DNA of 64,000 bases from Paludibacter sp. 47-17 (GTDB lineage Bacteria; Bacteroidota; Bacteroidia; Bacteroidales; Paludibacteraceae), in contig MKVT01000008.1 of the NCBI GenBank assembly GCA_001898935.1, forward strand, positions 62,001 through 126,000. Reading direction: 5' to 3'. A model generated the notes under the pieces. The model worked only from the letters and a program-made list of their open reading frames with translations. It did not search any database and was not told where the DNA came from. This document shows, piece after piece, positions 398-30,321 of this stretch (positions are counted from its first letter, which is position 1; each line of letters opens with the position of its first letter). A program made the position numbers and the translations under genes.

Positions 398-5174
<4,777 letters not shown>

Positions 5175-9177: not shown

Positions 9178-9224
9178 GAGAGTGTGTATACGTGTATTTT
9201 TTACGATTTGTTTTTCACCGAGTA

Positions 9225-9232
9225 CAAAAATA
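9225..9232 (-). promoter_or_regulatory. -7 box of the GH105-GH43-GH43 operon
   Basis: Read on the minus strand this is TATTTTTG, matching the Bacteroidota -7 consensus TAnnTTTG, 47 bp before the start codon. No TTTG element is visible 19-21 bp upstream, which fits a promoter that needs an activator such as the HTCS. Confidence 0.5.
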
Positions 9233-9272
9233 CGTGCATGCATTTAATTAAATGATACATATAAGGTCATTT

Positions 9273-9655: not shown

Positions 9656-12388
9656 ATGAACAAACTTTTTTTCTTCCTGGTGATGGGCTTGCTGAGTACT
9701 ACAATGCTTGTAGCGCAAACCAGCCGCACACCGGTTACCATCGACGGGGCTGTAGCCCAGGTAAATGGTTACACCGACAGCGAAGTTACCATAACCGGTA
9801 AATCCAATGTCTTCGTAAATGCTACTTCTGCAAAAAACAGTCTGGTGAACAGTATCGTTCGGTTGAACGGACCCGATGCCTGGCTGTATTTCTCCAACGT
9901 TCGCCCTTCGGCGGTGATCGATAGTTTGCTGTCGTCGGTTTATGTCGGCCAGTCGCCGGCGGTAAACCGTGCCAATGTGCGGGTAATGATTTACAAGCAT
10001 GGTACGGCAGTGGTGGCTCATCCCAACGGATTCAGGCCGCTTACTATTTTCAGCGGACAAAACTTCACCGGCGACTCGGCTTCGTATACCACCCACGTGT
10101 ATAATACGAACCTGGGATCGATGGACAATAGAATGCGTTCGTTCCGCCTGAAAAAGGGATATATGGCCACCTTGGCCACCAATGCCGACGGTACAGGCTA
10201 CAGCCGTGTTTTTATTGCCGATAACGAAGATCTTGAGTTTTCGACCTTCAATTACCTGCTCGACGAAAATGTGTCGTTTATCCGCGTTTTCAACTGGGAA
10301 TATGTAACCAAGAAAGGATGGTGCGGAACCGGCAGCGGCGGCGGTACCGATGTTGAAAAGGTGAAAGGCACCTGGTGGTATTCGTGGAGTGCCGACCAGG
10401 AATCGAAAACGAATCAGGAATATGTGCCGATTAAACAAAACCTGGGATGGCCGGGATGGGATCAGATCAACAGCAAGCAGCGGGTAAGTCATTTGCTGGG
10501 CTATAACGAACCCAACCGTCCCGATCAGTCGAACATGACGGTTGCCCAGGCGCTGGCTGCCTATCCCGAGTTCCTCAAATCGGGTTTGCGCATCGGTTCG
10601 CCTTCTCCTTCCGATCCTTTCGGCAGCAACGGTGCCTGGCTTTACGAATTCCTCGATAGCTGTAAAGCCCGCAACTGGCGGGTCGACTATGTTGCCATTC
10701 ATGCCTATTGGGCAAAATCGCCGCAGCAATGGTACAACGACCTGAAATATGTGCACGATCGTACCGGATTGCCCATTTGGATCACCGAGTGGAACAACGG
10801 AGCCAACTGGACGACCGAAACATGGCCTACCAACGATAAAAGTTATTCGGAGGCGAATGCCAATAAACAGCTCAACGATATTAAAGCGATTCTGAACGTG
10901 CTCGATACAGCCAGTTTTGTTGAACGCTATTCGATTTACAACTGGGTACAGGATGCGCGCGCCATGTTGCTGAACGGGAACCTCACCAAGGCCGGCGAAT
11001 ATTATATGAACAATAAATCGCAGGTTGCTTTTAATCGCAGGAAGGAAGTAATCCCTACCTATACCATGCGGCGCAATCCGACGCTGGGAGCCAGCTATGG
11101 TGCCGGAACCATTACGCTTACCGTGAACGACGGCAACGGCGACTATTTCAGAGGATTTATACTGGAACGTAAAAAAGATAATGGGAATTACGAAGTAATA
11201 CTCGACAGCGACGATCGTTCGACCCGTATTTACACCGAACTGCTCGACGTTTCGGCAAGTACCGTCAAATACCGGGCCCGTACGAAGCTGGCCGATGGCA
11301 GTTTTTCGTACTATACATCCGAAGTAGGATTCAGTGCTGCCCAGGGAGGACCTGTGGCGCAGTTCGGATCGGCAAGTGTTTCCAATTCGGCCTGGAACTC
11401 GGTTTTCTTCTCCAATTCCTTCGACGATATTCCCTCCATTATCCTCGGATCTCCGGGTAGTAACAATTCGACGGTACGGATGACGCCTCGTGCCAAATTC
11501 GTGAACCGTACCACCCGGTTCGAAATCCAGGCTATTCCGTGGGCCTATCAGAATATCAGCAGTTTTAGTAAAGATGAAGCAATCCCTTACCTGGTGATGA
11601 CCCCGGGATTGCATCAGCTTGGCGAAGTAACTGCGCTGGCAGGCAGAGCCACCGCATCGTCGGGCTGGACGAAAATTACCTTTTCCACTCCTTTCAATAC
11701 AGTGCCGGTAGTATTTGCCAATCAGTTGATCCCCAGCAATACCTTTGCGACCGTACTGCGTATCCGTAATGTGACCAACGAAGGTTTTGAAGCGCGGATC
11801 ATGAAGGAAGACGGCATCAGCTCTAATCCGGGCGCCGAAAACATCACCTATATCGCCCTCACTCCCGGCAAAGGAGTGGTCGAAGGTCGTCCTTTTATAG
11901 TGGGCGTAACGGCTCCGAATTATGTCGGGGCGACCTCAAAAGCCATCAATTACGGCGAAACAGTGCAGAATCCGTTGTTTATTGCACAGATGCAAACCAC
12001 CAACGATGATATCACTGCCGCTCTCCGGTCGTTTATTGTAAGCAATTCGGTGGCGTATGTGCTCAAGCAACGCGAAGGCTCGGTGAGCCAGACCAATCCT
12101 GTCGCCGAAACGGTAGGCTGGTTGGTCATGGATCCTCAGAATATTATCCAAGGGGTGAACGCTCCGAACACTACGACCTTTACACTTTCGCCCAATCCGG
12201 TACGCGATCGGATTTACCTCTCCGGCGAAATTGCCGATGGCACTTCCGTTTCAATTTATGATGTGTCGGGGGCGCTGGTACATCATGAAATGCTGCAAGG
12301 TAACGAAATCGACGTGGAAAGATTACCATCGGGTTATTATATCTTGCGTACTTCCGAATCCGGAACTTCAAAATTTATTAAATTATAG
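9656..12388 (+). CDS. GH128-like glycoside hydrolase with T9SS sorting domain
   Basis: 910 residues. Signal peptide (1-20, ending TTMLVAQ), N-terminal beta-rich region (about 20-220), a clan-A-like TIM barrel (about 220-460) with E285 in LLGYNEPNRP and E378 in IWITEWNNGA as probable acid/base and nucleophile, an Fn3-like module (about 465-560), two beta-sandwich repeats (about 560-830), and a C-terminal domain (about 835-910: FTLSPNPVRDRIY, LPSGYYIL, FIKL) of type A T9SS sorting class. The barrel resembles GH128, known for beta-1,3-glucanases. In this arabinogalactan-like locus an endo activity on another beta-1,3 backbone is also possible. First gene of the long plus-strand operon; the next gene starts 20 bp later. 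Family assignment is moderate, the sorting domain is clear. Confidence 0.75.
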   Translation: MNKLFFFLVMGLLSTTMLVAQTSRTPVTIDGAVAQVNGYTDSEVTITGKSNVFVNATSAKNSLVNSIVRLNGPDAWLYFSNVRPSAVIDSLLSSVYVGQSPAVNRANVRVMIYKHGTAVVAHPNGFRPLTIFSGQNFTGDSASYTTHVYNTNLGSMDNRMRSFRLKKGYMATLATNADGTGYSRVFIADNEDLEFSTFNYLLDENVSFIRVFNWEYVTKKGWCGTGSGGGTDVEKVKGTWWYSWSADQESKTNQEYVPIKQNLGWPGWDQINSKQRVSHLLGYNEPNRPDQSNMTVAQALAAYPEFLKSGLRIGSPSPSDPFGSNGAWLYEFLDSCKARNWRVDYVAIHAYWAKSPQQWYNDLKYVHDRTGLPIWITEWNNGANWTTETWPTNDKSYSEANANKQLNDIKAILNVLDTASFVERYSIYNWVQDARAMLLNGNLTKAGEYYMNNKSQVAFNRRKEVIPTYTMRRNPTLGASYGAGTITLTVNDGNGDYFRGFILERKKDNGNYEVILDSDDRSTRIYTELLDVSASTVKYRARTKLADGSFSYYTSEVGFSAAQGGPVAQFGSASVSNSAWNSVFFSNSFDDIPSIILGSPGSNNSTVRMTPRAKFVNRTTRFEIQAIPWAYQNISSFSKDEAIPYLVMTPGLHQLGEVTALAGRATASSGWTKITFSTPFNTVPVVFANQLIPSNTFATVLRIRNVTNEGFEARIMKEDGISSNPGAENITYIALTPGKGVVEGRPFIVGVTAPNYVGATSKAINYGETVQNPLFIAQMQTTNDDITAALRSFIVSNSVAYVLKQREGSVSQTNPVAETVGWLVMDPQNIIQGVNAPNTTTFTLSPNPVRDRIYLSGEIADGTSVSIYDVSGALVHHEMLQGNEIDVERLPSGYYILRTSESGTSKFIKL

Positions 12389-12408
12389 ATAAGTTTTTAT
12401 CACATCTT

Positions 12409-14982
12409 ATGAAAAGAATACACACAGGAACGAAACTGGGGGTACGGCTCTTATTGACGCTGACCCTCGTGCTCACCGTTTTATCCTCCTGCCGGGAAGA
12501 TTATTTCTACGACGAAATTCTCCCCGAATGGTTGGGCGGTAGTATCTACGAGTATTTGCAAGAGGAAGGGGAGTATACCACCTACATCAAGTTAATCGAT
12601 GATCTGGGTTACACCGAAGTATTAAACCTGACGGGGAGTAAAACCCTGTTTGTGGCCAATGATGCTGCTTTTGCCGAATTCTACAAAAACAACGAGTGGG
12701 GCGTGAAGAAGTACGAAGACTTCACCCTGGCTCAGAAAAAATTGATTTTTAATTTTTCGATGATTAATAATGCTTATCTCATCGAAACCTTGTCGAACTA
12801 CTACGATGGCAGCGTTTACAACGAAGGTACCGCTATGCGCAGGCCTACCGCCCTGCAGGCTATCGATAGCATAGCCTACGAACAAGGCGATAAGCTGTCG
12901 GTGGGTAAGTATTTCAATTCGCGTCGCGACAAAGGGATGTATCTGCTGAAGGATCATACCCTTATGCCTACGGCGTATTTTACCCAGCGCTTTCTGTCGC
13001 GTCGCGGGATTACCAACGAAGATATGGATTATATCACGGGCGCTGTGTTCCAGGGAAAACAAGCCCGTGAAAACGGCGACGTGCATATTTTCGATACCAA
13101 AGTAATAAAACGCGATATTGTGTGTAAAAACGGTTATGTGCATGTTCTCGAGAAAGTATTGATTCCGCCTGCTAATATGGCCGCTCGTATCGAAACGAAT
13201 CCGAATACCAAGATTTTCTCGAAATTGCTCGAGCGTTTTGCAGCCCCTTATTACGACGCGGAAATTAACGTACGTTATCGTGAGTTGAATCCTTCGTTCA
13301 GCGATTCGATTTTTGTTAAACGTTACTTTTCGCAGCGGGGAGGTACGGTGGTAGCTCCGGGCTCTTCGGTGGCGGTTTCCAGCCTGTTGCCGTTTAGTCC
13401 GGGTTGGAACAGCTATTCAACCGGTGGTTCTGCCGCACTTCCAGGCGATATGGCTGCTATGTTCGTGCCTACCGACGAGGCGATGAATGCTTATTTCAAT
13501 GGTGGAGTGGGCGAGTTGCTGAAAAGCCGGTTCGGCAGTTGGGACAGTGTACCCGATAATATCATCATTCCGTTGCTGAAACGTCATATGCGTCCGTCGC
13601 TCATCGAATCGGTTCCCAGCCGCTTCAGCAAAATTGTCGACGACGAAAACTATGCGATTCCTGTCGAGAAATCGCATATTGTCGGAAGTTACACCGGTGT
13701 GAACGGTCAGATTTTCTACACTAACCAGGTGTATCCGCCGGTGGATTATATTTCGGTGTACAGCCCGGTGCTGCTGAGCGCCAATACCAAAATCATGAAC
13801 TGGGCCATCCGTATTTCATCGAGCAGTGTCGATGGTACTTTGTTCGAATTCTACAAGCTTTATCTGAACTCGTTGGTGAGCCGCTACAGCGTGTTTATTC
13901 CGACCGACGATTATTTTGAGCATTATGTCGACCCGATTGCTTACGGACAGGATGTTCCGGCGGTGCTTAAGTTCAAATACGTGGAGCGGAACAACTCGGT
14001 GATGGCTTATGTACATAAGTACGATAAGGTAAACGACATGGTTGAACCCGATCCGATCGATAGTATTTCGAGCACTACGGCGCCCAACTTCATTAAAAAC
14101 CGCTTGTGGGATGTACTCGATTCGCATATCGTGATCGGCGAGATCTCGGCATCGAAAAAATATTATGTTACCAAAGCCAATGATATTATTCGCGTGGATG
14201 GAAACGAACCGAATATGACGGTGAGTGGCGGCCGGAATATCAACCTGGGGACTTCGTCGAAAGTTACACGTGTGTTCGACCAGGCCAACGGCAAGACCTT
14301 CTTTATCAATAATTCCATTCAGCCCTCATTGCGCTCGTTGTATACGACGCTGGCTTCGAATCCGGAGTTCTCCGAATTCTTCGATATGTTGAGCAACGTA
14401 CCTTCCGACTATGTGGCGCAGATTTTCTATCCTCAGGGCGTCGATTATGCCGTGAAGTTCTTCAATGCCTACCGGTATACTGTGTATGTGCCTACCAATG
14501 AGGCTATTCGTGCAGCTGTGGGCAGCGGGAAGGTAAAAACATGGGAAGAAATAAACGATATGCCGGCCGGTGCGGCCCGTACGGCGGCTATCGAGAAAGT
14601 GGTTCGTTTCCTGAGGTATCATTTCCAGGACAACACGGTGTTCTTCGGCGATAATGTAAATGCGCTGTATCAGTCGGCCACCATCAAAACGGATGATGCC
14701 AAAACTCACTGGAATACTGCACGGAATAAATATTACAAAATTGGGGTGGTGGGAAGTGCCAATGCGATGGAGCTGACTACCGAAAACAATAAGAAAGCGA
14801 GTGTAACCTCCCTGCATAATATTATCGCGAAGGATTACTTGTTTGCCAAACTGCCGACTGCCTACAAAAACGTAGATGGAACCGGCCCTCTCAGCGGATC
14901 GAACTTCAATACTTCGCTCATCTCGACTTCCTCGTCGGTAGTGGTACATCAAATTAATAATATACTGACCTTTGAAGATTAA
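12409..14982 (+). CDS. Multi-FAS1 (fasciclin) surface lipoprotein A
   Basis: 857 residues with a lipoprotein signal (hydrophobic stretch then LSSC at about residue 27-30), so probably outer-membrane anchored. I see about four FAS1-like modules: about 45-255 (KTLFVANDAAFAEF ... NGYVHVLEKVL), about 260-445 (AAMFVPTDEAMNAY), about 465-650 (RYSVFIPTDDYFEH) and about 650-830 (RYTVYVPTNEAIRA ... SVTSLHNIIAKD). The motifs match the H1 and H2 boxes of fasciclin domains, which mediate adhesion in other proteins. The gene lies 20 bp after the GH128-like gene and 13 bp before SusC, so it is co-transcribed with the transporter. Its place suggests a surface glycan- or glycoprotein-binding role, but this is inference; no enzyme motif is present. 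Confidence 0.85.
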   Translation: MKRIHTGTKLGVRLLLTLTLVLTVLSSCREDYFYDEILPEWLGGSIYEYLQEEGEYTTYIKLIDDLGYTEVLNLTGSKTLFVANDAAFAEFYKNNEWGVKKYEDFTLAQKKLIFNFSMINNAYLIETLSNYYDGSVYNEGTAMRRPTALQAIDSIAYEQGDKLSVGKYFNSRRDKGMYLLKDHTLMPTAYFTQRFLSRRGITNEDMDYITGAVFQGKQARENGDVHIFDTKVIKRDIVCKNGYVHVLEKVLIPPANMAARIETNPNTKIFSKLLERFAAPYYDAEINVRYRELNPSFSDSIFVKRYFSQRGGTVVAPGSSVAVSSLLPFSPGWNSYSTGGSAALPGDMAAMFVPTDEAMNAYFNGGVGELLKSRFGSWDSVPDNIIIPLLKRHMRPSLIESVPSRFSKIVDDENYAIPVEKSHIVGSYTGVNGQIFYTNQVYPPVDYISVYSPVLLSANTKIMNWAIRISSSSVDGTLFEFYKLYLNSLVSRYSVFIPTDDYFEHYVDPIAYGQDVPAVLKFKYVERNNSVMAYVHKYDKVNDMVEPDPIDSISSTTAPNFIKNRLWDVLDSHIVIGEISASKKYYVTKANDIIRVDGNEPNMTVSGGRNINLGTSSKVTRVFDQANGKTFFINNSIQPSLRSLYTTLASNPEFSEFFDMLSNVPSDYVAQIFYPQGVDYAVKFFNAYRYTVYVPTNEAIRAAVGSGKVKTWEEINDMPAGAARTAAIEKVVRFLRYHFQDNTVFFGDNVNALYQSATIKTDDAKTHWNTARNKYYKIGVVGSANAMELTTENNKKASVTSLHNIIAKDYLFAKLPTAYKNVDGTGPLSGSNFNTSLISTSSSVVVHQINNILTFED

Positions 14983-14995
14983 ATAAGAAAGACGC

Positions 14996-17900
14996 ATGAA
15001 AACAAATATGAGAATTACGTATCTCCTCTTTATGCTTATGTTGATTCCCGGCATGACCACTGTATTGCGGGCACAGGGGAGCAATGACATTATCATTCAG
15101 GGTCAGGTGACTTCTTCGTCGGATAAACTGGAGATTATCGGTGCCAACGTATCGGAAATCGATGGAAACAACCGTGTTGTAAATGGTACATCGACCGACT
15201 TTAACGGTAAATTTGTAATGCGTGTCAAAAGCGCATCGAACCGTTTGTCGATCACCTATATCGGATACAACCGTAAGATTGTTGAAATAGGGAACCGCAG
15301 AGTCATCAATATTACTTTGGACGAAAGCGTGCAAACCATCCGTGCGGTAGAGGTTACGGCTACCCGCCGTTCGTCGCAGGGTGGTTTCTCCATTCCAACC
15401 CGTGAGTTGAGTACCGCTATTCAAACCATCGATACCAAGGAGTTTGAAGGTTTGCAGGTGTCGTCGATCGACGAAGCCTTGCAGGGACGTATTGCCGGCT
15501 TGGATATCGTGGCTAACTCGGGCGACCCGGGTAGTGGTACCTCGATGCGTATTCGCGGGGTAACCTCGATCAACAGCAGCAGCGAGCCGCTGATTGTAGT
15601 AAACGGTGTGCCCTACGAAGTACAGATAGATCCGAACTTCGACTTTGCGAACTCCAACCAGGAACAATATGCCAATATGTTGAGTATCAACCCCGACGAT
15701 ATCCTCGAGATTTCGGTGTTGAAGGATGCCGCAGCGTCGGCCATCTGGGGGTCGAAAGGAGCCAACGGGGTGTTGATGATCACCACCAAACGTGGTCTGG
15801 CCGGCCCGACCCGCGTTGAATACTCGTACCGTTATACCCTTACCAAGCAGCCCCGCGGCCTGAATATGCTGAATGGTGACGATTTTACCATGTTGATGAA
15901 ACAAGCTTATCTTAATCCCCGTCAGGACGATAATGCTACCGATATCGACGAATATAACTACGATCGTAACTTTCCCGATTTCGAGAATTTCAACAACAAT
16001 ACCGACTGGGTGGGTGCCGTTACTCAATTGGGTGCCGTCCACGACCATTATGTAACCATCTCGGGTGGTGGCGAACGGGCTCGTTTCCGTGTATCGGGAG
16101 GATATTTCAACCAGCGCGGTACCGTCATCGGACAGGAGCTTCAACGTATATCGTCGCGCGCCTATCTCGAATATTCGGTATCCGATCGGATCAAATTTAT
16201 TTCCGAATTCTCGCTTACCAATTCGGACAACCTGCGTAACTACGAGAACCTGCTGGGGATAGCTTATCGCAAAATGCCCAACGTAAGTATCTATGCACAG
16301 GATGCCCTGGGTAACAATACCTCGTCGTACTACAACATTCCGCGTACTTCGGGACTCGACGACGACCAGAAAAACCTGCGTAACCCGGTTGCACTGGCCA
16401 ACCTGGCTACCAACCAGCTCAAATCGTTCCGTATCCTGCCTACCTTCCGCCTGCAGTACGATCTCGTAAAACCGGAAGACGGACGGTTGAAATACGAAAT
16501 GTATGTGTCGTTCGACATCAACAACAGCAAAACCACCATGTTCCTTCCGCAGGAAGTGTCGAACCTGGCGTGGTTCGAATCGGGCGTGAACCGTGCCGAA
16601 AACTCCGACCGCGAATCGCTCACAATTTATTCCGATCAGAACATTTCGTGGCAGCCTAAATTCGAAAGCAAGGATCACGATTTATTGCTCTACGGCTCGT
16701 TCCAGATCAACGTGGGTAACTCGGCCAGCCAATCGATGGTCAGCTACAGCCTGCCTTCGGGCGATGCAATCGATGCTTCGGGCTTCGGATACCTGTCGGG
16801 AGCCAATACCGCTCACGGATCGTGGCGCTCGCTGGCTTTCATGGCACGCGGACACTATTCGTACAAAGGACGCTATATCCTCGGCGGAACCATCCGTCGC
16901 GACGGAAGTACCAAGTTCGGTCCCGGTAATAAATTCGGAAACTTCCCCGCCTTGTCGGCCAAGTGGATTATTTCCGACGAAGATTTTATGGAACCCTCAA
17001 AAGACTGGTTAAGCACCCTGGCCATCCGCCCGTCGTGGGGGATCAGCGGTAACCAGCCCAAATACGAATACCTGCACTACAGCCGCTATGGTTTATACGG
17101 ATCGTATATCGATATGACTGCCGTAAAACCATTGTCGTTGCGCCTCAGCAATCTCAAATGGGAAACTACCCAATCGTTTAACTTCGGTGCCGACATCGGC
17201 TTCAAGGACGATACTTATCTGTTCGACATCAACCTGTATACCAAGCGTACCAAAGACCTGTTGTTCGAAAACGTGGCCATTACGTCGGCTTCGGGTTACA
17301 GTAATCTGCCTTACATTAATGGAGGTACCATGGACAACGTAGGATGGGAAGTGAACTTCTACTCGAACCGGTTTGTGAAATACAAGGATTTCAGCATCGA
17401 TTTCCGTTTCAACCTGTCGAATTACATGAATACCCTTATCGACCTGGATCAAACCCTGCTCGATAGTTACAACCGCGATTTCAATTACGCGAATGGTTCG
17501 TACCTTACCCGTGTACAGAAAGGGAATTCCTTCGGTTCGATCTACGGCTTCAAATACAAAGGCGTATACCAGTACGACCAGTATATTCCCGGCGTACAGG
17601 AAAATGCGCCGGTAGCCCGCGATGCCAGCGGTAATGTGATTCTCGACCAGGAAGGCAATCCGCGTCCTGTATGGTTCAACTATTACCAGAAAGGCGGAGG
17701 TTCGCGTTATATGTTCCGTGGTGGCGATGCTATTTACGAAGATATCAACAGCGATGGAAGCATCGACGAGCTCGATATCGTATATCTCGGTAACTCGAAC
17801 CCGAAAATCAACGGGGGTTTCGGGCCCACATTCCGCTACAAAAACCTCAGCATGAACGCCTTCTTCAACTTCCGTGTCGGAAATAAGGTGATCAATGCCG

Positions 17901-18289
17901 CACGTATGAATACCGAGAATATGTATTTCGATAATAACCAGAGCTATGCTGTTAACTGGCGTTGGCGTAAGGAGGGCGACATTACCGAAATTCCGCGTGC
18001 ATTGCACGAAGCCGGCTACAACTGGCTGGGAAGCGACCGGTTTGTGGAAGATGGTTCGTTCCTTCGTTTCAAATACCTCACGTTCAATTACGCAGTTCCG
18101 CAGAATACATTGAAAAAACTGAAGATCAGCCGGTTGAATTTTTATCTGACCTTCAACAACGTGGCAGTATGGACAAAATACACCGGTGTCGATCCTGAAG
18201 TAGGATACGGCGGACTGGGACTCAGTTACGACGACTCGCGCACACCGCGATCGAAAGATATGACATTCGGTGCATCAATTGGATTTTAA
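14996..18289 (+). CDS. SusC-type TonB-dependent transporter, first copy
   Basis: 1097 residues, normal for SusC/RagA. Signal peptide about 1-25, then a carboxypeptidase-D regulatory-like domain (about 35-110), the plug (about 130-270; DEALQGRIAGLDIV, STSMRIRG-type region, PLIVVNGVPYE, ISVLKDAAASAIWGSKGANG) and a barrel of about 800 residues ending in ASIGF. SusC proteins import oligosaccharides through the outer membrane with energy from TonB, with SusD as lid. The SusD partner follows after 15 bp; the FAS1 gene before it ends 13 bp upstream. Probable cargo: oligosaccharides made by the surface GH128-like enzyme. Confidence 0.95.
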   Translation: MKTNMRITYLLFMLMLIPGMTTVLRAQGSNDIIIQGQVTSSSDKLEIIGANVSEIDGNNRVVNGTSTDFNGKFVMRVKSASNRLSITYIGYNRKIVEIGNRRVINITLDESVQTIRAVEVTATRRSSQGGFSIPTRELSTAIQTIDTKEFEGLQVSSIDEALQGRIAGLDIVANSGDPGSGTSMRIRGVTSINSSSEPLIVVNGVPYEVQIDPNFDFANSNQEQYANMLSINPDDILEISVLKDAAASAIWGSKGANGVLMITTKRGLAGPTRVEYSYRYTLTKQPRGLNMLNGDDFTMLMKQAYLNPRQDDNATDIDEYNYDRNFPDFENFNNNTDWVGAVTQLGAVHDHYVTISGGGERARFRVSGGYFNQRGTVIGQELQRISSRAYLEYSVSDRIKFISEFSLTNSDNLRNYENLLGIAYRKMPNVSIYAQDALGNNTSSYYNIPRTSGLDDDQKNLRNPVALANLATNQLKSFRILPTFRLQYDLVKPEDGRLKYEMYVSFDINNSKTTMFLPQEVSNLAWFESGVNRAENSDRESLTIYSDQNISWQPKFESKDHDLLLYGSFQINVGNSASQSMVSYSLPSGDAIDASGFGYLSGANTAHGSWRSLAFMARGHYSYKGRYILGGTIRRDGSTKFGPGNKFGNFPALSAKWIISDEDFMEPSKDWLSTLAIRPSWGISGNQPKYEYLHYSRYGLYGSYIDMTAVKPLSLRLSNLKWETTQSFNFGADIGFKDDTYLFDINLYTKRTKDLLFENVAITSASGYSNLPYINGGTMDNVGWEVNFYSNRFVKYKDFSIDFRFNLSNYMNTLIDLDQTLLDSYNRDFNYANGSYLTRVQKGNSFGSIYGFKYKGVYQYDQYIPGVQENAPVARDASGNVILDQEGNPRPVWFNYYQKGGGSRYMFRGGDAIYEDINSDGSIDELDIVYLGNSNPKINGGFGPTFRYKNLSMNAFFNFRVGNKVINAARMNTENMYFDNNQSYAVNWRWRKEGDITEIPRALHEAGYNWLGSDRFVEDGSFLRFKYLTFNYAVPQNTLKKLKISRLNFYLTFNNVAVWTKYTGVDPEVGYGGLGLSYDDSRTPRSKDMTFGASIGF

Positions 18290-18304
18290 CAGCAGCAACG
18301 ATAT

Positions 18305-19927: not shown

Positions 19928-19951
19928 TCAGATAATAAAAGAAAAATGCAT

Positions 19952-21886: not shown

Positions 21887-21905
21887 AATACGAAGTATTA
21901 GCAAC

Positions 21906-23498
21906 ATGAAAACAACTATAGCATTAAAACAATTTCTCCTGGTCGTGGCTTCGGTACTGGTGATGGTGTCGTGCGAGAATGAAGCCTGGAATGAGCATTA
22001 TACGACGGAGGTAACGGAGAAAAGCGAGCTCTCGATTTACGATTATATTAAATCGAAACCCGAACTGAGTAAATTTGCCCAGGCATTGGAACTTACCGGT
22101 TTCGACAAAATCTTATCGGAAGATATTACCTATACGGTGTGGGTGCCCGACAACGAGGCATTGGCCGGTCTGGATTTAACCGATCAGGCTCAGGTAAGTA
22201 AAGTGGTTCGTAACCATATCACCCGCTTTACGCATCCGACATCGCGGGTCGACGAGATGTCGATGCTGATGCTGAATGGTAAGATTCTGGATTTCAAACG
22301 TCTTCCCGGCAACAAATATGCACTGCACGGTAAGGAATTGAAGCAGCCGAATATAGCTGTACGCAATGGTATGATCCATCTGATGAGCGGCTATGTTCCG
22401 TATATTCTGAATCATTGGGAGTATATAGCGGTGGCCGAGGGGATCGATTCGCTGCGCAATTATATTACGTCGCTTACCCGGGAGGTGTTCGATTACGATG
22501 CCAGCTACCTCGACGGAGTACTTATCGACTCGGTATTCACCACCACCAACAGCGTGTTGACCGCGCTGGCCGACCTGAACGTGGAGGATAGTATTTATAC
22601 GGCTATTTTACCCGGCAACGCTGCCTGGAACGAACGGCTGGCCAAGGTGTTTCCTTACTATAAGACGCTGGAAGTCGATGGCGGTGTTCAGGCTCAGGGT
22701 ACGAATGCCCGTTGGATGATGGTGCGTGATTTGTTTTTCAGAGGTAGCTTGAAGCAACCCCTGGCTTCGGATAGCTTGCAATCGACAGTGGGAACGCAAT
22801 TTACCAATGCTTCACAATTGATACCTTCGTCGGCACCGGTGGAATTGAGTAATGGGAACAGCTATATTTTCAGCAGTTATCAGCATAAACCCGAAGAAAG
22901 CTTCCTTCAGCCCATTCGTATTGAGGCCGAAAATGCATCGTACGGACGGAGTGTGAAGGATTACGAAATTTCGCTTTTCTCGTCGCTGGGTACCGGATAC
23001 GATATTTCCAACGGTTTTTATATCAATGCACGAGCACTTTCGACATTGAGTACTGCCCGTATGAGCATCAACTTCCCGATTCCCAACACCCTGGCTACCA
23101 AATACAATATTTATTGCGTGTTTGTACCCATGTCCATTGCCGATTCGACCAATGCGCGTAAGTACAGGGTCAGGTTCTCCATCAACTACAATTACGACGA
23201 TGCGGCCAAAAGCGATTCGGTGTGGATTGGAAACAATGGATATGTAAAACCGCATACCCAGGCTAAAATTTTTGAAACCGACAGCAAAAAAGTAACGAAA
23301 CTGCTGGTGGCCGAGAATTATGAATTTCCATGGGCCAATCTGGTTGGAACGGGGGGCCGGATGGGAACCCTGATGCTTTCCGACAAAATCCGGGTCGGAT
23401 TGAGAGTTGAAAATGCTGCGGGAACTTCTGTGCTGGATCGGTTGAATTACAGCAGGGATCTCCGTATCGACTATATACTACTGGAACCTGTAAAGTAA
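21906..23498 (+). CDS. FAS1 lipoprotein C with C-terminal beta-sandwich
   Basis: 530 residues from the ATG at 21906, which gives a lipoprotein signal (hydrophobic run then VMVSCENE). The open frame reaches back into the previous gene, but that part has no signal and is rejected. A FAS1 module spans about 40-180 (DITYTVWVPDNEALAG ... NGMIHLMSGYVPYI). A degenerate second one runs to about 320 (YTAILPGNAAWNERL), followed by a beta-rich domain (about 335-530, IEAENASYGRSV to LRIDYILLEPVK) like that of lipoprotein B. The next start lies directly after the stop, so it is tightly coupled to the second SusC. Same inferred role as the other FAS1 lipoproteins. Confidence 0.8.
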   Translation: MKTTIALKQFLLVVASVLVMVSCENEAWNEHYTTEVTEKSELSIYDYIKSKPELSKFAQALELTGFDKILSEDITYTVWVPDNEALAGLDLTDQAQVSKVVRNHITRFTHPTSRVDEMSMLMLNGKILDFKRLPGNKYALHGKELKQPNIAVRNGMIHLMSGYVPYILNHWEYIAVAEGIDSLRNYITSLTREVFDYDASYLDGVLIDSVFTTTNSVLTALADLNVEDSIYTAILPGNAAWNERLAKVFPYYKTLEVDGGVQAQGTNARWMMVRDLFFRGSLKQPLASDSLQSTVGTQFTNASQLIPSSAPVELSNGNSYIFSSYQHKPEESFLQPIRIEAENASYGRSVKDYEISLFSSLGTGYDISNGFYINARALSTLSTARMSINFPIPNTLATKYNIYCVFVPMSIADSTNARKYRVRFSINYNYDDAAKSDSVWIGNNGYVKPHTQAKIFETDSKKVTKLLVAENYEFPWANLVGTGGRMGTLMLSDKIRVGLRVENAAGTSVLDRLNYSRDLRIDYILLEPVK

Positions 23499-23499
23499 A

Positions 23500-26400
23500 A
23501 TGGATGATAGAAAGAATATGAAAAAGCAAACAACACATAAACAGAATAGTATGAACAATTCAATATTCAACATATTCGGGATGAAGTCCATTTTTACGGT
23601 GTTACTCCTTCTGCTTACCATTGGAATGGTTGCTCAGGACAAGGGAATGTTCAAAGGGAAGATCACTGATGCGGCTACCGGTCAGCCGATTAGTGCGGCA
23701 CAGGTTTCTATCCCCGATAAAAACGCCTCGGCGGTAACCAACGAAAACGGAGAATTTGAAGTGAAAATAACATCGGCAAACGACATCATGCAGGTATCGG
23801 CCATTGGGTACGATGTGCGCGAAATCGGGATGCAGGGACGCCGGTCGGCTGAGATCCGGTTGTATCGTAAAGGTTTCACCCCGTATTTCAAACAAGTTCA
23901 GGATCTGAACGGTGCTGTGAATCAGAGTGCCGCTACCGCGTCGATCCATGGTATTGCTACCAACGACTTATCGTCGGCTCTGGTAGCCGATGAAATTATC
24001 ATGCGCCAGATCGGAGCTACGGCCCGTCAGGTGATTCGTTCGGGTGCCGAAGGCATGGGAACCAACCTGTTTATTCGCGGTATGAATTCGCTCAATGCCA
24101 ATGCTCAACCTTTGTACATTGTGGATGGAGTGATCTGGGATAATATGCAGAATGTAGCGTCCATTCACGGGGGGCATTTTTCGAACCCGCTGGATAATAT
24201 TCCGGTCGAGGATATTGCCAATATCACCGTGTTGAAAGACGGTACTTCGATTTATGGAAGCAAGGCAGCCAACGGGGTGGTAGTAATCAATACCAAACGT
24301 GCGGCCAATATGGTAACTCGTATCGACCTGAAGATGTTTCTGTCGACCACACAGTCGCCGGCAGGAGTGCCCATGATGAATGGCGACGATTTCCGCATTT
24401 ACGCCAGCGACATGCTGGGCTCGACCGGCGTATCGCCAAAACTGGTCGATAATGTAGGTTTCCTGATCACCGATCCTTCGAATACGCAATATCCGGTGTA
24501 TCACAATTCGACCGATTGGAGAAAACTGGTCTATCAGCCGGGATTTACCCAGAATTATCAGATTAATGTGACGGGGGGCGACGAAAAAGCCTTGTATTAT
24601 TTCTCCATCGGTCTGGCCGATAACAAGGGGATTGTAAAAACAACCGACTGGAACCGCATCAATTCGCGCTTTAATGCCGATTTCAACTTGGGTGATCATC
24701 TTAATTTAGGATTGAATATCGGTTTTACTCGTAACGAGCGCTCGCTCATCGACGATGGTGTGAACCGCTACTCATCGCCCACCTGGCAAGCGGTTATCAA
24801 ATCGCCTTTCCTGAGTCAGTATTCGTTTACCAACCAGGGCGAAATAACCGCCAATCCGGCTGTGACCGACATCTTCGATATTGGTAACCCTACGGCTGTA
24901 ATCCGTTACTCGCAGAATTTTCAGAAAAAATACCGGTTCAACATCTCGGTAGTGCCGGAGTGGAAAATAACCCCCGATCTGAAATTAACCTCGCTGTTCG
25001 ACTACAGCTTGTACAAAACCATCGAAGGGCATTTTGTTCCCGAAAAATTCACCCCGCTCCGGTACCTCGAAAACAAAGGTTATTCGAAAAACATGATTTC
25101 GAGTCAGGTAATGCGTAATACCAATATCTACAGCAATACTTATCTGACCTATACCAAGGCGTTCGATCTGCAACACCGTCTGAAGGCCCTGGCCGGGGTA
25201 CGGTATATTTTCAATTACCTCGAGTCGGATTATGCCGAAGAGCACAATTCGGGTTCGAACAATAACACCACCATCACCGGTGCCTACGACTTTCTGTATG
25301 TCGACGGTTTGAATGTGGAAACCAAGTCGATTTCGAATTATTATCAGGCCGAATATGCCTACGATCAGCGCTATTTCCTCGGTGCATCGGTGTCGTTCGA
25401 TGCTTCGTCGCGTTTCGGACGCAATACGGCCGGCGGTATTAACGGAGTGGGTGTTTTCCCTGCTATCAACGGAGCCTGGCTGGTGTCGTCGGAAAGTTTC
25501 ATGAGTAATGTCGCTCCGGTGAATTTCCTGAAGTTGCGGGTGGGTTATGCGTTGTCGGGTAACGACGATATACGCGACTACGAATCGCAGACCTATTTCA
25601 ATTCGGTACGGTTTATCAACCGGGCCAACGGGCTGGTACTTGCCAATCTGGCCAATACCCGCGTTCAGTGGGAATCCACGGCCCGTGCCAATGCGGGGCT
25701 CGATCTGGGGCTGTTCAACGACCGCCTGAATATCCAGGCCGATGTTTTCCATAGTACTACATCCGACCTGCTTACACTTCAACCGCTGCCCGAAATTACC
25801 GGTCTGGGATATTACTGGGCCAACGGCGGATCGATGACCAACACGGGCTGGGAAGCTGCTGCTCAGGTAAAGCTGGTCAATACCGGCAATTTCCAATGGG
25901 AAGTAGGACTCAGTGCAGGTAGTTATGTGAACGAAGTCAAGAGTCTGCCCGACGATAAACCGATTGTGACCGCTCGTTACGGAGGTGAGCTGATTACCGA
26001 AGTAGGCAGCCCGTATGCATCGTTCTACGGCTATAAAACCAACGGAGTATTTGCTTCGCAGGCCGATGCCGATGCTGCCGGATTAAAAAAGCTGATGCCC
26101 GATGGATCGTATTCGCAATTCGGTGCCGGCGATATGATTTTCGAAGAGGTGGTGAAAGATGGTATCATCGACGAAAAAGACCGCCAGGTAATTGGAAGTC
26201 CGATACCTACCCTGTATGGGAATTTCAACACCCGCTTCAACTACAAACGATTTACACTGGATGCAGTGTTCTCGTACAGCTACGGCAATGAAGTGTACAA
26301 CTACTACCGTCGTAACCTGGAGTCGGGATCCGACTATAGCAATCAGACACTGGCCATGTTGCGCCGCTGGACGGGCGAAGGGCAGACGACTGTCGTGCCG

Positions 26401-26694
26401 CGGGCAGTGTACGGCGACCCCATGGGCAATGCCCGGTTCTCCGATCGCTGGATCGAGAACGGTTCGTTCCTGCGCTTCAAGAACCTTACGTTCTCCTATC
26501 GTTTACCGCTCAGCAGCGAGTTCATCGAAGGGTTAAGCGTATGGGCTTCGGCCGACAACCTCTACACCTGGACCTCGTACCTGGGCATCGATCCCGAGGT
26601 TGCGGCAGGTAATTCGGTGTTCGATCAGGGTATCGACAATGGTTTATTGCCTCCGACCCGTTCGTTCTCGCTGGGTGTTAAGATCAATCTGTAA
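23500..26694 (+). CDS. SusC-type TonB-dependent transporter, second copy
   Basis: Up to 1064 residues. The true start is uncertain: ATG codons at 23500, 23518, 23551 and 23581 are in frame, and the signal peptide core (MKSIFTVLLLLLTIGMVAQ) begins at 23581. Then a carboxypeptidase-like N-domain (MFKGKITDAATGQPISAAQV), plug (LFIRGMNSLNANAQPLYIVD, NITVLKDGTSIYGSKAANGV) and barrel. It differs much from the first SusC, so it is not a recent duplicate and may import a different fragment. The FAS1 gene C ends one base upstream; its SusD follows 25 bp downstream. Confidence 0.93.
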   Translation: MDDRKNMKKQTTHKQNSMNNSIFNIFGMKSIFTVLLLLLTIGMVAQDKGMFKGKITDAATGQPISAAQVSIPDKNASAVTNENGEFEVKITSANDIMQVSAIGYDVREIGMQGRRSAEIRLYRKGFTPYFKQVQDLNGAVNQSAATASIHGIATNDLSSALVADEIIMRQIGATARQVIRSGAEGMGTNLFIRGMNSLNANAQPLYIVDGVIWDNMQNVASIHGGHFSNPLDNIPVEDIANITVLKDGTSIYGSKAANGVVVINTKRAANMVTRIDLKMFLSTTQSPAGVPMMNGDDFRIYASDMLGSTGVSPKLVDNVGFLITDPSNTQYPVYHNSTDWRKLVYQPGFTQNYQINVTGGDEKALYYFSIGLADNKGIVKTTDWNRINSRFNADFNLGDHLNLGLNIGFTRNERSLIDDGVNRYSSPTWQAVIKSPFLSQYSFTNQGEITANPAVTDIFDIGNPTAVIRYSQNFQKKYRFNISVVPEWKITPDLKLTSLFDYSLYKTIEGHFVPEKFTPLRYLENKGYSKNMISSQVMRNTNIYSNTYLTYTKAFDLQHRLKALAGVRYIFNYLESDYAEEHNSGSNNNTTITGAYDFLYVDGLNVETKSISNYYQAEYAYDQRYFLGASVSFDASSRFGRNTAGGINGVGVFPAINGAWLVSSESFMSNVAPVNFLKLRVGYALSGNDDIRDYESQTYFNSVRFINRANGLVLANLANTRVQWESTARANAGLDLGLFNDRLNIQADVFHSTTSDLLTLQPLPEITGLGYYWANGGSMTNTGWEAAAQVKLVNTGNFQWEVGLSAGSYVNEVKSLPDDKPIVTARYGGELITEVGSPYASFYGYKTNGVFASQADADAAGLKKLMPDGSYSQFGAGDMIFEEVVKDGIIDEKDRQVIGSPIPTLYGNFNTRFNYKRFTLDAVFSYSYGNEVYNYYRRNLESGSDYSNQTLAMLRRWTGEGQTTVVPRAVYGDPMGNARFSDRWIENGSFLRFKNLTFSYRLPLSSEFIEGLSVWASADNLYTWTSYLGIDPEVAAGNSVFDQGIDNGLLPPTRSFSLGVKINL

Positions 26695-26719
26695 TTATAT
26701 TCTTGAAAAAAATATTGAT

Positions 26720-28336
26720 ATGAAGAAGATAAGCAAACTACTCGTGGTGATTCTGTTCCCCGTGATGTATTTTTCCAGTTGCGAAAGCTTGCTGGAGGTT
26801 GATTCGGACCGGTTGGTGTTCGAGAAAAACCATGGGATGGACGCCGCTAACGATACGCTGTATTCGATGTTCGGAGTTTTCTCGCAGTTGCAGAAGCTGG
26901 CCGACAGTTATATAGTGCTGGGTGAACTCCGTGGCGATTTGATGGATGTATCGGAAACATCCAACCGATTCCTGAAAGAGGTGAATACATTTGATTTCAG
27001 TACCGAAAATCCCTATAGTTCGAACATCCGTGATTATTATGCAGTAATCAATAACTGTAACTACATCATCCAAAATATCGATACTTCGGTGGTCAATAAA
27101 GCCGAAAAGGTGATGTACAAAGTGTATGCGGCCTCCAAGGCAATCAGGGCCTGGACCTATATGCAGATGATGCTCAATTTTGGCGAAGTTACGTATTACG
27201 AGAAACCCCTGCTGACCCTCGAGGATGCTTTTGAAAATCACACGGTTTACAAGAGCATGAACGAACTGGCGCCGGTGCTGATTCAGGATTTACTTCCCTG
27301 GAAAGATACACCACGACCACAATTCGGGAACCTTAGCGCCTACAACTCGCGTAATTCGTTCTTCCCGGTTCGTTTCCTGCTGGGCGATTTGTACCTGTGG
27401 AACGGACAATATGAGCATGCAGCCAACGAATACCGCGATTTGATGTTCTACGACAGGGTAATGCTCAACAATCAGTTCCGTTCGTATTATCAGGTGGTAA
27501 ATAATGCGTTCTCGGGTGGCGCTGTGGTGAACTGGGTTAATGTATTTAATTTCAGTTCCAGCGAACATCTCACTAAATTAGTTGCCTCCAACGAATATGG
27601 ACGTTATTTTACACTCGACAGCCTGATGTTGCAACGGCAACTGATTCCTTCCGACTTAAGTATCGGCAACTGGCAGACTCAGGTGTATGTCGAAACGGCG
27701 AAGCTGGATACGCTTGGCGACCTTCGCAGAATTGGATCGGTTGCCCGGCAGTCTTTACCTGCTTCGCCCCAGGTCGACAATTATGTGATATACAAGTATA
27801 CCGAAATGAATTCCGACGATTACGATACCCGTCAAATTGTACTGTACCGTGCTGCTACCCTTTACCTGCGGTATGCCGAAGCGGTAAACCGGCTGGGCAA
27901 ACCCCGTCTGGCATTCGCGGTGCTTAAGAACGGTCTGAAAGCGGCTACCATCAACAGTCCGTTTATTGTACCTTTGAGCGAAAGAGATTCCATTCTTCCC
28001 AACTATATGAATTTTGCCGATGCCCGTTTTGAAAACAATATCGGTGTACGGGGACGAAGCCTGGGATATCCCGAGCGCGATACTACTTATTTTGCGATTC
28101 CGCGTTCAATCACTTCTCAGGATGAAATGATGAATTTTGTGGAAGATAAGATTATTGAAGAAGCTGCGTTGGAGCTTGCGTTCGAAGGCAACCGGTTCCA
28201 CGACCTGATGCGGGTGGCTATTCGTCGCAACGACAACAGTTACCTTGCCGATCGTGTGGCCGCTAAACATACCCATAACAAGGAAGCAATTCGTTCCAAA
28301 TTGCTGGATCGTAAAAATTGGTACCTGAAAAAGTAA
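26720..28336 (+). CDS. SusD-type glycan-binding lipoprotein, second copy
   Basis: 538 residues from the ATG at 26720, 25 bp after SusC; an upstream extension in the same frame overlaps SusC and has no signal. Lipoprotein signal ending MYFSSCESLLE. The C-terminus has the SusD-like helix (EEAALELAFEGNRFHDLMRVA). Partner of the second SusC. A terminator-like hairpin lies in the 68 bp before the next gene. Confidence 0.93.
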   Translation: MKKISKLLVVILFPVMYFSSCESLLEVDSDRLVFEKNHGMDAANDTLYSMFGVFSQLQKLADSYIVLGELRGDLMDVSETSNRFLKEVNTFDFSTENPYSSNIRDYYAVINNCNYIIQNIDTSVVNKAEKVMYKVYAASKAIRAWTYMQMMLNFGEVTYYEKPLLTLEDAFENHTVYKSMNELAPVLIQDLLPWKDTPRPQFGNLSAYNSRNSFFPVRFLLGDLYLWNGQYEHAANEYRDLMFYDRVMLNNQFRSYYQVVNNAFSGGAVVNWVNVFNFSSSEHLTKLVASNEYGRYFTLDSLMLQRQLIPSDLSIGNWQTQVYVETAKLDTLGDLRRIGSVARQSLPASPQVDNYVIYKYTEMNSDDYDTRQIVLYRAATLYLRYAEAVNRLGKPRLAFAVLKNGLKAATINSPFIVPLSERDSILPNYMNFADARFENNIGVRGRSLGYPERDTTYFAIPRSITSQDEMMNFVEDKIIEEAALELAFEGNRFHDLMRVAIRRNDNSYLADRVAAKHTHNKEAIRSKLLDRKNWYLKK

Positions 28337-28353
28337 TATGAGTTAATCGGCAG

Positions 28354-28399
28354 GAGGATGTGTTGCGGTTGTCCGGAATGCATCCTCTTTCGTTTTTTT
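28354..28399 (+). terminator. Terminator-like hairpin between SusD and GH154
   Basis: GAGGATG pairs with CATCCTC across a 20-nt loop, followed by TTTCGTTTTTTT. This is the form of an intrinsic terminator. The T tract ends five bases before the GH154 start codon, so there is no room for a promoter after it; readthrough must supply GH154 expression. Confidence 0.7.
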
Positions 28400-28404
28400 A
28401 AGTT

Positions 28405-30321
28405 ATGAAGAAAATTGTAGTGTTAGGTCTGTTGCTGGTTGTTGTAGGTGCATTACCGGCCAAACAGGTATTTACGGTGAAAAATCCGGATTTCAAAAAA
28501 AGTCCTTATACAGGAATGACCCGCCAGCATTGGAAGGATGCGGCATTGTACATGCTCGAAGGTGCATTCGGTTATGTGCATAACATCGACGACCCGATGA
28601 AGTTTCCCAAACAGCATGAAATCACTTATCCCCGCAACGACGGGCAGATCCCGACCGAAAAGCTGGAAGGGCTGAGTCGTACCTTGTTCGTAGCTGCTCC
28701 TTTGTTGATGGAAGATCCCGATCTGACCCTCAACGGAGTGAAAGTGGCCGATTATTACCGTCATCAGTTGACGAATCTGGCGAAAGAAGGCCATCCTTCG
28801 TTTATTCGCCACCGGGCGCGCAACGGAGGGCCCAGCCAGAACCTGGTGGAGTTCGGAGCCATGGCCATTTCGCTGTTTACTGCTCCCAGGGTGCTGTGGG
28901 ATCCGCTTCCCGAAGCAGAGAAAGATAAACTGGCGGCGCTGATGCTCAGTTACGCCGACGGTCCTACCGTGGATTCGAACTGGAAATTCTTCAATATTTT
29001 TGTATTGAGCTTTTTCGATATGCAAGGGTACGAGGTGAATAAGAAATTGCTGGAGGAGTACCTCGATCGCTCGTTGAAGCATTACCGGGGCGAAGGTTGG
29101 TACCACGACAGTCCGGCCTACGATTACTATTCGATGTGGGCTTTTCAGATGTATGGCATTTTGTGGGCCGATTTCTACGGCAATAAGCACTACCCCGAAC
29201 ATGCCCGCAGGTTTACCGAAAATTTCTCCGATTTGAAGCACAATTATCCTTACCTGTATGCACGCGACGGAAAGATGATTATGTGGGGACGAAGCATTGC
29301 CTACCGTTATGCTGCAGCTACTCCGTTTATGCTGATGGGTCTCGAAAACGATCCCTCCACCAACTGGGGTTGGATGCGCCGTATTTCGTCGGGCAACCTG
29401 CTGCAGTTTTTTCAGCATCCCGATTTTCTGGAAGATGGCGTACCGACCCTGGGCTTTTACGGACCCTTTGAGCCGGCTACGCAGATGTACAGTTGCCGTG
29501 GAAGCGTATATTGGGGCGGCAAGGTGTTTTTAGGCCTCGTGGTGCCCGAAAGTCATCCGTACTGGCAGGCGAAAGAGAACGAAGGTCCCTGGGAAAAGGA
29601 ACTGAAGAAAGGAACTGTGTATAATAAGTTTCAGCCCGGTTCGGAAATGTTGATTACCGATTATCCGAATATCGGTGCTGCCGAAGTGCGTGCCTGGTGT
29701 CATGAAACGGTGGCGGGCGATTGGCAGAAATTCCGAAGCACCGAGAACTACAACCGGTTGTCGTACAACAGTGCTTTCCTTTGGCAGGCCGATGGTAAAA
29801 ACGGCGAAGTAGCCATGAATTATCTTACCAGAAATGCAAAAGGAGAATGGGAAGCGTTGCGGCTGTATACTTTCCGGGGTTTCGAGGAGGGAATATACCA
29901 TCGCGATGCTGTATTGGAAACGAATCGTGCGCTCCGCTATTCGTTGTATGAGAAAACCTTACCCGATGGTATCTATCGCAACGATACCTTGTTTTCGCCT
30001 GTCGATACCGAAATCCGCCTCGGTCATTATGCATTACCGGTGCTCGACAAACCAATTAAAAAGCAAATCCGTACACTTGGAAAACATACGGTGTATGTGC
30101 TCGACAACGGATATTACAGTTTAGCAATGGCTGTGAACGCCAATTTCGGTAGAATGGAATTTGTGGAAGCCGAAGGTTTGCATCCCGAAGCTCCCAAAAG
30201 TGTTGTTATCAATGCGGTGGCTACTGTAAAAGCGGGCGAACCATTGCCTTTGCAGTCGTTGATGCTGTGGAAAAAATCGGGTAAGAAATTCAAAAAGTCC
30301 GATTTGAAACCGCTCTATTGA
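28405..30321 (+). CDS. GH154 (DUF2264) probable exo-beta-glucuronidase
   Basis: 638 residues with a signal peptide (about 1-19, ending GALPAK). The sequence follows the DUF2264 pattern: an alpha/alpha-barrel with YTGMTRQHWKDAALYMLEGA near the start, RNGGPSQNLVEFGAMAISLF, NWKFFNIFVLSFFDMQG and DGWY-like YHDSPAYDYYSMWAFQMYG, then a C-terminal beta domain from about 400. DUF2264 proteins form CAZy family GH154, founded on a B. thetaiotaomicron beta-glucuronidase acting on arabinogalactan. Predicted role: removal of terminal (4-O-methyl-)glucuronic acid. Last gene of the plus operon, preceded by a terminator-like hairpin and facing the HTCS gene. Confidence 0.85.
   Translation: MKKIVVLGLLLVVVGALPAKQVFTVKNPDFKKSPYTGMTRQHWKDAALYMLEGAFGYVHNIDDPMKFPKQHEITYPRNDGQIPTEKLEGLSRTLFVAAPLLMEDPDLTLNGVKVADYYRHQLTNLAKEGHPSFIRHRARNGGPSQNLVEFGAMAISLFTAPRVLWDPLPEAEKDKLAALMLSYADGPTVDSNWKFFNIFVLSFFDMQGYEVNKKLLEEYLDRSLKHYRGEGWYHDSPAYDYYSMWAFQMYGILWADFYGNKHYPEHARRFTENFSDLKHNYPYLYARDGKMIMWGRSIAYRYAAATPFMLMGLENDPSTNWGWMRRISSGNLLQFFQHPDFLEDGVPTLGFYGPFEPATQMYSCRGSVYWGGKVFLGLVVPESHPYWQAKENEGPWEKELKKGTVYNKFQPGSEMLITDYPNIGAAEVRAWCHETVAGDWQKFRSTENYNRLSYNSAFLWQADGKNGEVAMNYLTRNAKGEWEALRLYTFRGFEEGIYHRDAVLETNRALRYSLYEKTLPDGIYRNDTLFSPVDTEIRLGHYALPVLDKPIKKQIRTLGKHTVYVLDNGYYSLAMAVNANFGRMEFVEAEGLHPEAPKSVVINAVATVKAGEPLPLQSLMLWKKSGKKFKKSDLKPLY

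Follow-up and report, generated by a model that had tools for sequence, protein, structure and literature searches.

The operon at positions 9656–30321 of the 64,000-nucleotide stretch of Paludibacter sp. 47-17 DNA analysed here (the window) represents a conserved outer-membrane module of seven genes, with two SusCD pairs and three FAS1 lipoproteins. Judged by its sequence, the second SusC of the module (SusC2) looks atypical for a TonB-dependent importer. The best explanation that we can offer, with a probability of about 0.5, is a single asymmetric complex in which a powered SusC1D1 pair and an unpowered SusC2D2 pair would be combined with FAS1 lipoproteins as glycan-binding subunits.

The operon and its surroundings

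A first-pass annotation had claimed nine genes in a set order on one strand, and ORF and Pfam searches agree on both the genes and the order. The enzyme, SusC and SusD assignments likewise match the Pfam results, the T9SS tail being a Por_Secre_tail domain. The features, including the neighbouring genes, are as follows.

2049–5156, minus strand: GH2 beta-galactosidase-like neighbour
5175–6131, minus strand: GH43-family neighbour
6175–9243, minus strand: GH88-family and GH43 fusion in one protein, divergent neighbour
9656–12388, plus strand: PF11790 enzyme (Glyco_hydro_cc, H_lectin and Por_Secre_tail, a T9SS sorting tail); ORF and Pfam
12409–14982, plus strand: FAS1-A, lipoprotein of 857 aa; ORF and Pfam Fasciclin
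14996–18289, plus strand: SusC1, with the variant TonB box AVEVTAT; Pfam, TIGR04056 and N-terminal alignment
18305–19927, plus strand: SusD1 lipoprotein; PF07980 and PF14322
19946–21886, plus strand: FAS1-B, lipoprotein of 646 aa, with two FAS1 domains (about 45–400) and a predicted CBM-like beta-sandwich (about 409–640); Pfam and AlphaFold model
21906–23498, plus strand: FAS1-C, lipoprotein of 530 aa, with two FAS1 domains (about 40–335) and a predicted CBM-like beta-sandwich (about 335–530); Pfam and AlphaFold model
23500–26694, plus strand: SusC2, without a recognisable TonB box; Pfam, TIGR04056 and N-terminal alignment
26720–28336, plus strand: SusD2, a divergent SusD lipoprotein; PF07980, with PF14322 under its cut-off
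28405–30321, plus strand: DUF2264 (PF10022) protein; Pfam
30439–34479, minus strand: hybrid two-component regulator (HTCS-type), facing the operon

The DUF2264 protein bears the name GH154 in the first-pass annotation. The intergenic gaps are 20, 13, 15, 18, 19, 1, 25 and 68 bp, in keeping with the claim of about 1–25 bp until the last gene, although the start of SusC2 is uncertain: its ORF opens at 23500, but its signal peptide would place the start at 23551 or 23581, and with the latter the gap before SusC2 becomes 82 bp instead of 1. Both SusCs clear the TIGR04056 cut-off of 368 bits (SusC1 712 bits, SusC2 621 bits). SusD1 and SusD2 each adjoin a SusC, and the lipobox of SusD lipoproteins was found in 81/81 and 69/69 cases, respectively. 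A scan for promoters and terminators returned sites no more numerous than in shuffled sequences.

Fasciclin (PF02469, over its cut-off) is the sole Pfam domain in FAS1-A, FAS1-B and FAS1-C, and each carries one of the lipoprotein-type signals SSCRED, SSCDPDE and SCENEA, which bears out the earlier description of three lipoproteins with no enzyme motif. As candidate surface glycan-binding proteins (SGBPs), they stand beside susCD and possess a lipobox, and most have an acidic residue somewhere between +1 and +5. Two FAS1 stretches were recognised in FAS1-A, although its size would fit about four such domains. AlphaFold models predict two FAS1 domains followed by a CBM-like sandwich in both FAS1-B and FAS1-C, consistent with the claim that two of the proteins end in a beta-sandwich. 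The relatives of FAS1-C (137 among 7997 candidates) bore only the names ‘fasciclin domain-containing protein’ or ‘hypothetical protein’.

With susCD next to PF11790, DUF2264, GH43, GH88 and GH2 proteins and an HTCS-type regulator, the region is a polysaccharide utilization locus. A second module of the genome adjoins a T9SS rhamnogalacturonan lyase and a third adjoins a GH88 protein. A PL11-type rhamnogalacturonan lyase with a T9SS tail and passenger-type repeats lies at L027:2641-7185, next to a module other than the one in the window. Together the enzymes around the modules hint at pectic or arabinogalactan-type glycans, without pointing specifically to a glycoprotein such as the arabinogalactan protein that had been proposed as a ligand. 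The 59 scanned proteins (a subset of the 115 listed) that neighbour other modules are diverse, ranging from GH115 members to housekeeping genes, and pectic glycans are therefore a fair guess at the substrate for this genome only. PF11790 occurred in 5 of these 59 proteins, and the PF11790 enzyme is an optional neighbour of the seven-gene module.

Copies, relatives and co-inheritance of the module

Six loci account for all 20 Fasciclin matches in the genome, and every one of them reads FAS1-A, SusC1, SusD1, FAS1-B, FAS1-C, SusC2, SusD2 with mostly short gaps. Across these loci the SusC1 proteins are 36–63 % and the SusC2 proteins 31–46 % identical to their counterparts in the window, whereas SusC1 and SusC2 share 25–28 % identity. 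Genes in the same place are thus related while SusC1 and SusC2 are far apart, which indicates an old arrangement that was copied whole. The second module on contig C8 also adjoins a SusC of 1176 aa (L188; G000:C8:416500-422500), which we take to be STN-like at its N terminus.

When genomes of named species were scanned with the FAS1-B alignment, 425 places were confirmed, and the best 80 of them, at 79 loci, were taken further. Among these best 80 of 425, modules were found in Paludibacter, Dysgonomonas sp. 216, Geofilum rhodophaeum, Prolixibacteraceae, an Alistipes MAG, Bacteroidaceae MAGs, Prevotella and Paraprevotella; the Bacteroidaceae, Prevotella and Paraprevotella genomes include rumen and gut ones, and the module may therefore count in plant-fibre use. 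When 395 Bacteroidota genomes were sampled, 77 gave a match, most of them through FAS1 domains alone. Eight long FAS1-B matches (>200 bits, covering 481–613 of 626 positions) came from other orders of the class, in seven genomes, and the complete canonical order was present at all eight.

In total, 104 loci were classified: 79 named loci (from the best 80 of 425 places), 11 from the 395-genome sample and 14 more that were chosen mainly for testing doubtful cases and not at random. FAS1-B-like genes stood in a stretch with no SusC at 24 of them. The complete canonical order was found at 47 of the 80 loci with a SusC in the stretch, a sample that includes the best 80 of 425 places and in which relatives are not independent and some loci, such as L076 and L084, are nearly alike. 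The other 33 comprise 15 that are canonical but cut, 6 with FAS1-B multiplied, 7 with FAS1-B in front or missing (one of which, L049, is an artefact in which FAS1-B is hidden by a longer antisense ORF), 3 of a short six-gene variant and 2 with another order. L076 and L084 have three FAS1-B copies in a row within the module. The six-gene variant (L177, L178 and L205) reads FAS1-A, SusC1, SusD1, FAS1-B, SusC2, SusD, without FAS1-C, and its last SusD fits the SusD1 model better.

With six occurrences in this genome and many in relatives, the order goes beyond chance. FAS1 lipoproteins thus occupy fixed places in a SusCD operon, as the first-pass annotation had proposed, and the order extends far beyond the single genome to which it might have been confined. 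Its distribution is patchy: any Fasciclin match was found in 18/40 close relatives, mostly of the same genus, and profile searches place the module in about 17 of 149 genomes of the order.

At L073, L079, L081, L090, L095, L098 and other loci, one or two FAS1-B genes occur with no SusCD, and several of these adjoin apparent housekeeping genes in Bacteroidaceae from rumen and rectum. L179–L181, which have generic FAS1 genes and no SusCD, were left out of the module counts. The existence of solo FAS1-B genes would suit FAS1 proteins that are adhesins co-regulated with the glycan locus and bind neither SusCD nor glycans, as would the role of FAS1 as a known adhesion and ligand-binding domain (PMC6032426). 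We regard this as very unlikely, given the fixed operon places in six paralogues and in other orders, the predicted CBM-like ends, and the regulator and carbohydrate enzymes alongside.

To follow the two SusCs, their profiles were run over the 149 genomes, with only the five best candidates per genome scored, so that lower-ranked orphans would be missed. Each profile marks 16 genomes, 15 of them common to both (leaving out five SusC2-profile matches of about 640 bits, L195–L199), and on reading both non-common genomes hold both genes: at L208 SusC1 is cut by the contig end, and at L205 the short SusC2 falls below the threshold. In genome G552 the two genes lie on different contigs, the SusC2 contig being only 8 kb long. 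Genes of the SusC2 clade outside the module were sought among 31 matches >740 bits, either by reading the stretch or from FAS1-B/SusC1 positions, and none was accepted. L195–L199 (635–660 bits) were rejected as orphan SusC2 candidates, as they score about equally with both models and a clear TonB box is visible in four of them; the fifth, L199, has a stop that breaks its frame, and the inspected part begins past the TonB-box region.

In a tree of 101 SusCs (short SusC2 forms left out), 32 SusC1 and 32 SusC2 proteins each form one clade with support of 1.0. Distance matrices of all seven genes correlate at 0.87–0.96 across 53 complete modules, and the observed value for SusC1 against SusC2 was reached in 0 of 2000 permutations. 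Taken as sequence evidence, these correlations show descent as a unit and do not by themselves prove contact.

The TonB-box region of SusC1 and SusC2

In the levan importer component Bt1763 an N-terminal extension precedes the TonB box (PMC7782687), and according to a review every TonB-dependent transporter possesses such a box (PMC11658791). N-terminal alignment revealed the box in 28/28 ordinary SusCs of the same genome and a variant box in SusC1. Our controls (n = 40) were 36 non-module SusCs of this genome that pass the family cut-off, all of which look box-bearing (one atypically), and four ordinary SusCs of other genomes. A loose pattern at the box columns was matched by 38/40 controls and 70/73 SusC1 but by 7/71 SusC2, where the 71 leave out three short forms (score <700); weak FAS1-A proteins were likewise excluded from the FAS1-A counts. 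The controls and SusC1 proteins that miss the pattern (three SusC1) are still box-like, and the seven SusC2 matches are unconvincing (Y-x-x-x-T-N or similar, with no hydrophobic run).

A strict motif built from ordinary SusCs exceeded the shuffled 95 % level in 26/26 controls, 6/40 SusC1 and 3/49 SusC2, after 2 controls and 10 SusC1 without an anchor had dropped out. It fails on the variant box of SusC1 and was therefore replaced by a motif for which half of the controls and of the SusC1 proteins served as training set, with the rest held out and each protein scored against its own shuffles. The trained motif beat the shuffles in 19/20 held-out controls, 24/37 held-out SusC1 and 2/71 SusC2; the last is the chance level (3.6 expected; median p 0.59). 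An earlier run had given 25/31 held-out SusC1 and 2/60 SusC2. An alternative box upstream of the N-terminal extension was also considered and set aside as unlikely, as D-S/T-hydrophobic stretches occur in few SusC2 and are not conserved.

The linker from extension to plug has a median of 37 residues in SusC2, 48 in controls and 54 in SusC1. It measures 54–57 residues in 61/61 SusC1, with a recurring GG-x-x-I-P-x-R-E stretch, versus 47–49 in 28/28 controls. The SusC2 proteins of three divergent loci, the six-gene variants L177, L178 and L205 (919–936 residues), have neither N-terminal extension nor box. At the other end of the protein, the final residue is Leu in 67/71 SusC2 (KINL in 30; the window gene ends at 26694) and Phe in 63/73 SusC1 and 28/36 controls. 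Two further SusCs of this genome on contig C1, L183 and L190, seemingly lack the N-terminal extension, and L190 has an atypical box-like stretch, DELIQVA.

The sequence comparisons show that SusC2 has lost any recognisable TonB box, and SusC2D2 is thus probably not powered in the usual way. Deletion or mutation of the TonB box in Bt1763 causes a growth defect like that of SusD loss (PMC7782687), and with no recognisable box in the 71 SusC2 or the three short forms, it is doubtful that the FAS1 proteins feed two different importers, as had been suggested earlier. If the operon encoded two separate SusCD importers of the ordinary kind, SusC2 would have to draw its power from a TonB box that escaped recognition, from a further TonB paralogue or from some other energiser. 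This appears unlikely to us, although SusC2 keeps its signal peptide, plug, barrel and SusD2 and, in most cases, the N-terminal extension, and matches TIGR04056 in 18/18 cases. The sequence of TonB boxes is moreover flexible (PMC11658791), and a phi-x-phi-P element at or near the box site in 17/71 SusC2 could be a variant contact; proline in the box, however, usually abolishes uptake, as in BtuB, though FhuA I9P kept 18 % (PMC11658791). The chance-level motif result, the shorter linker and the loss of both extension and box in the short forms also argue against separate importers, as does the TIGR04057 SusC signature, which is matched at 1e-10 by 21/21 SusC1 but 6/18 SusC2.

Box loss would also fit a protein that no longer imports, with SusC2D2 working on its own, outside the SusC1D1 transporter, as a passive receptor, a platform for adhesion or a port for export. 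Adhesion and ligand binding are roles associated with FAS1 domains (PMC6032426), and secretion via a TonB-dependent barrel is known from Oar/PopC, but Oar has a box (PMC11658791). The constant 1:1 linkage with SusC1D1 and the retained SusD2 suggest instead that SusC2D2 takes part in the same uptake process, and we judge a stand-alone role to be distinctly improbable.

A proposed two-part machine and its relation to known systems

The long retention of a box-less SusC next to a box-bearing one is most readily explained if both belong to one machine, and the fixed set of importer, socket-less look-alike and putative sticky surface proteins suggests a two-part one for uptake. A mechanism is proposed where SusC1D1 would act as a normal TonB-driven pedal-bin importer and SusC2D2, with no TonB box, as its constant partner; the two would sit side by side in one complex, rather than the same SusCD unit occurring twice, and the FAS1 lipoproteins would lie on its outer face. 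The substrate, here perhaps a pectic or arabinogalactan-type glycan containing uronic acid, would be cut outside the cell by T9SS enzymes. The FAS1 proteins could hold the polymer via their CBM-like ends while SusC2D2 docks it or passively receives fragments, and oligosaccharides would be imported by SusC1D1. Gene order, linkage, co-inheritance, box loss and lipoprotein signals, shown at the level of sequence, form the basis of this model. The folds are predicted, and the physical complex, the missing powering, the glycan binding and the substrate are inferred. That a heteromeric SusCD transporter, made of an energised SusC1D1, a box-less pseudo-transporter SusC2D2 and FAS1 subunits, exists across several Bacteroidia orders, with one TonB contact serving a two-barrel machine, is a tentative generalisation that we hold at somewhat below even odds.

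The order of the genes was thus recognised correctly from one operon and is far more general than could be seen there; the oddity of SusC2, missed at that stage, is the most telling fact. A box-less SusC kept 1:1 with a box-bearing one across orders amounts to a natural experiment that bears on energy coupling and on what a second barrel does. It is also a caution about the TIGR04056 family name ‘TonB-linked’, as some members have no box. Neither the seven-gene module nor a box-less SusC lineage was found described in the open-access literature, in a search that did not query box-less SusCs directly. Periostin and TGFBIp are animal matrix proteins with no known SusCD link, unlike the FAS1 proteins described here.

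Among bacterial systems, a symbiont transcribes a FAS1 gene at a high level and has two SusCD pairs on one contig, although the account, as far as available, does not say that the FAS1 gene and the pairs are neighbours (PMC10199937). SusD-like and FAS1 proteins appear together in a Flavobacteriaceae cellulose/hemicellulose locus (Figure 6 legend), the accessible text of which does not discuss FAS1, the seven-gene order or the TonB box (PMC4891872). Two susCD pairs in one locus also occur in the Muricauda beta-mannan locus (PMC6298971), with no FAS1 or fasciclin in the main text, and in an alginate tandem locus (PMC8319329); the parts of both reports available to us do not mention a missing TonB box.

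SusC1D1 shares the plan of the Bt1763–Bt1762 levan importer, namely N-terminal extension, TonB box, plug, barrel and SusD lid, whereas SusC2 is without the box that Bt1763 needs to work (PMC7782687). SusCD structures, in the published accounts available, are symmetric dimers (SusC2D2 here being a stoichiometry), and the reason for dimerising is still discussed. In the levan and dextran utilisomes of Bacteroides thetaiotaomicron, two identical SusCD units are combined with a surface enzyme and a glycan-binding lipoprotein (SGBP) (PMC7618045). SusC, SusD and surface lipoproteins from a single locus act jointly in these utilisomes, as those of the module would; the module differs in that the utilisomes use one SusCD type twice, whereas the module has two different SusCD pairs, one of them box-less, and three FAS1 lipoproteins (PMC7618045).
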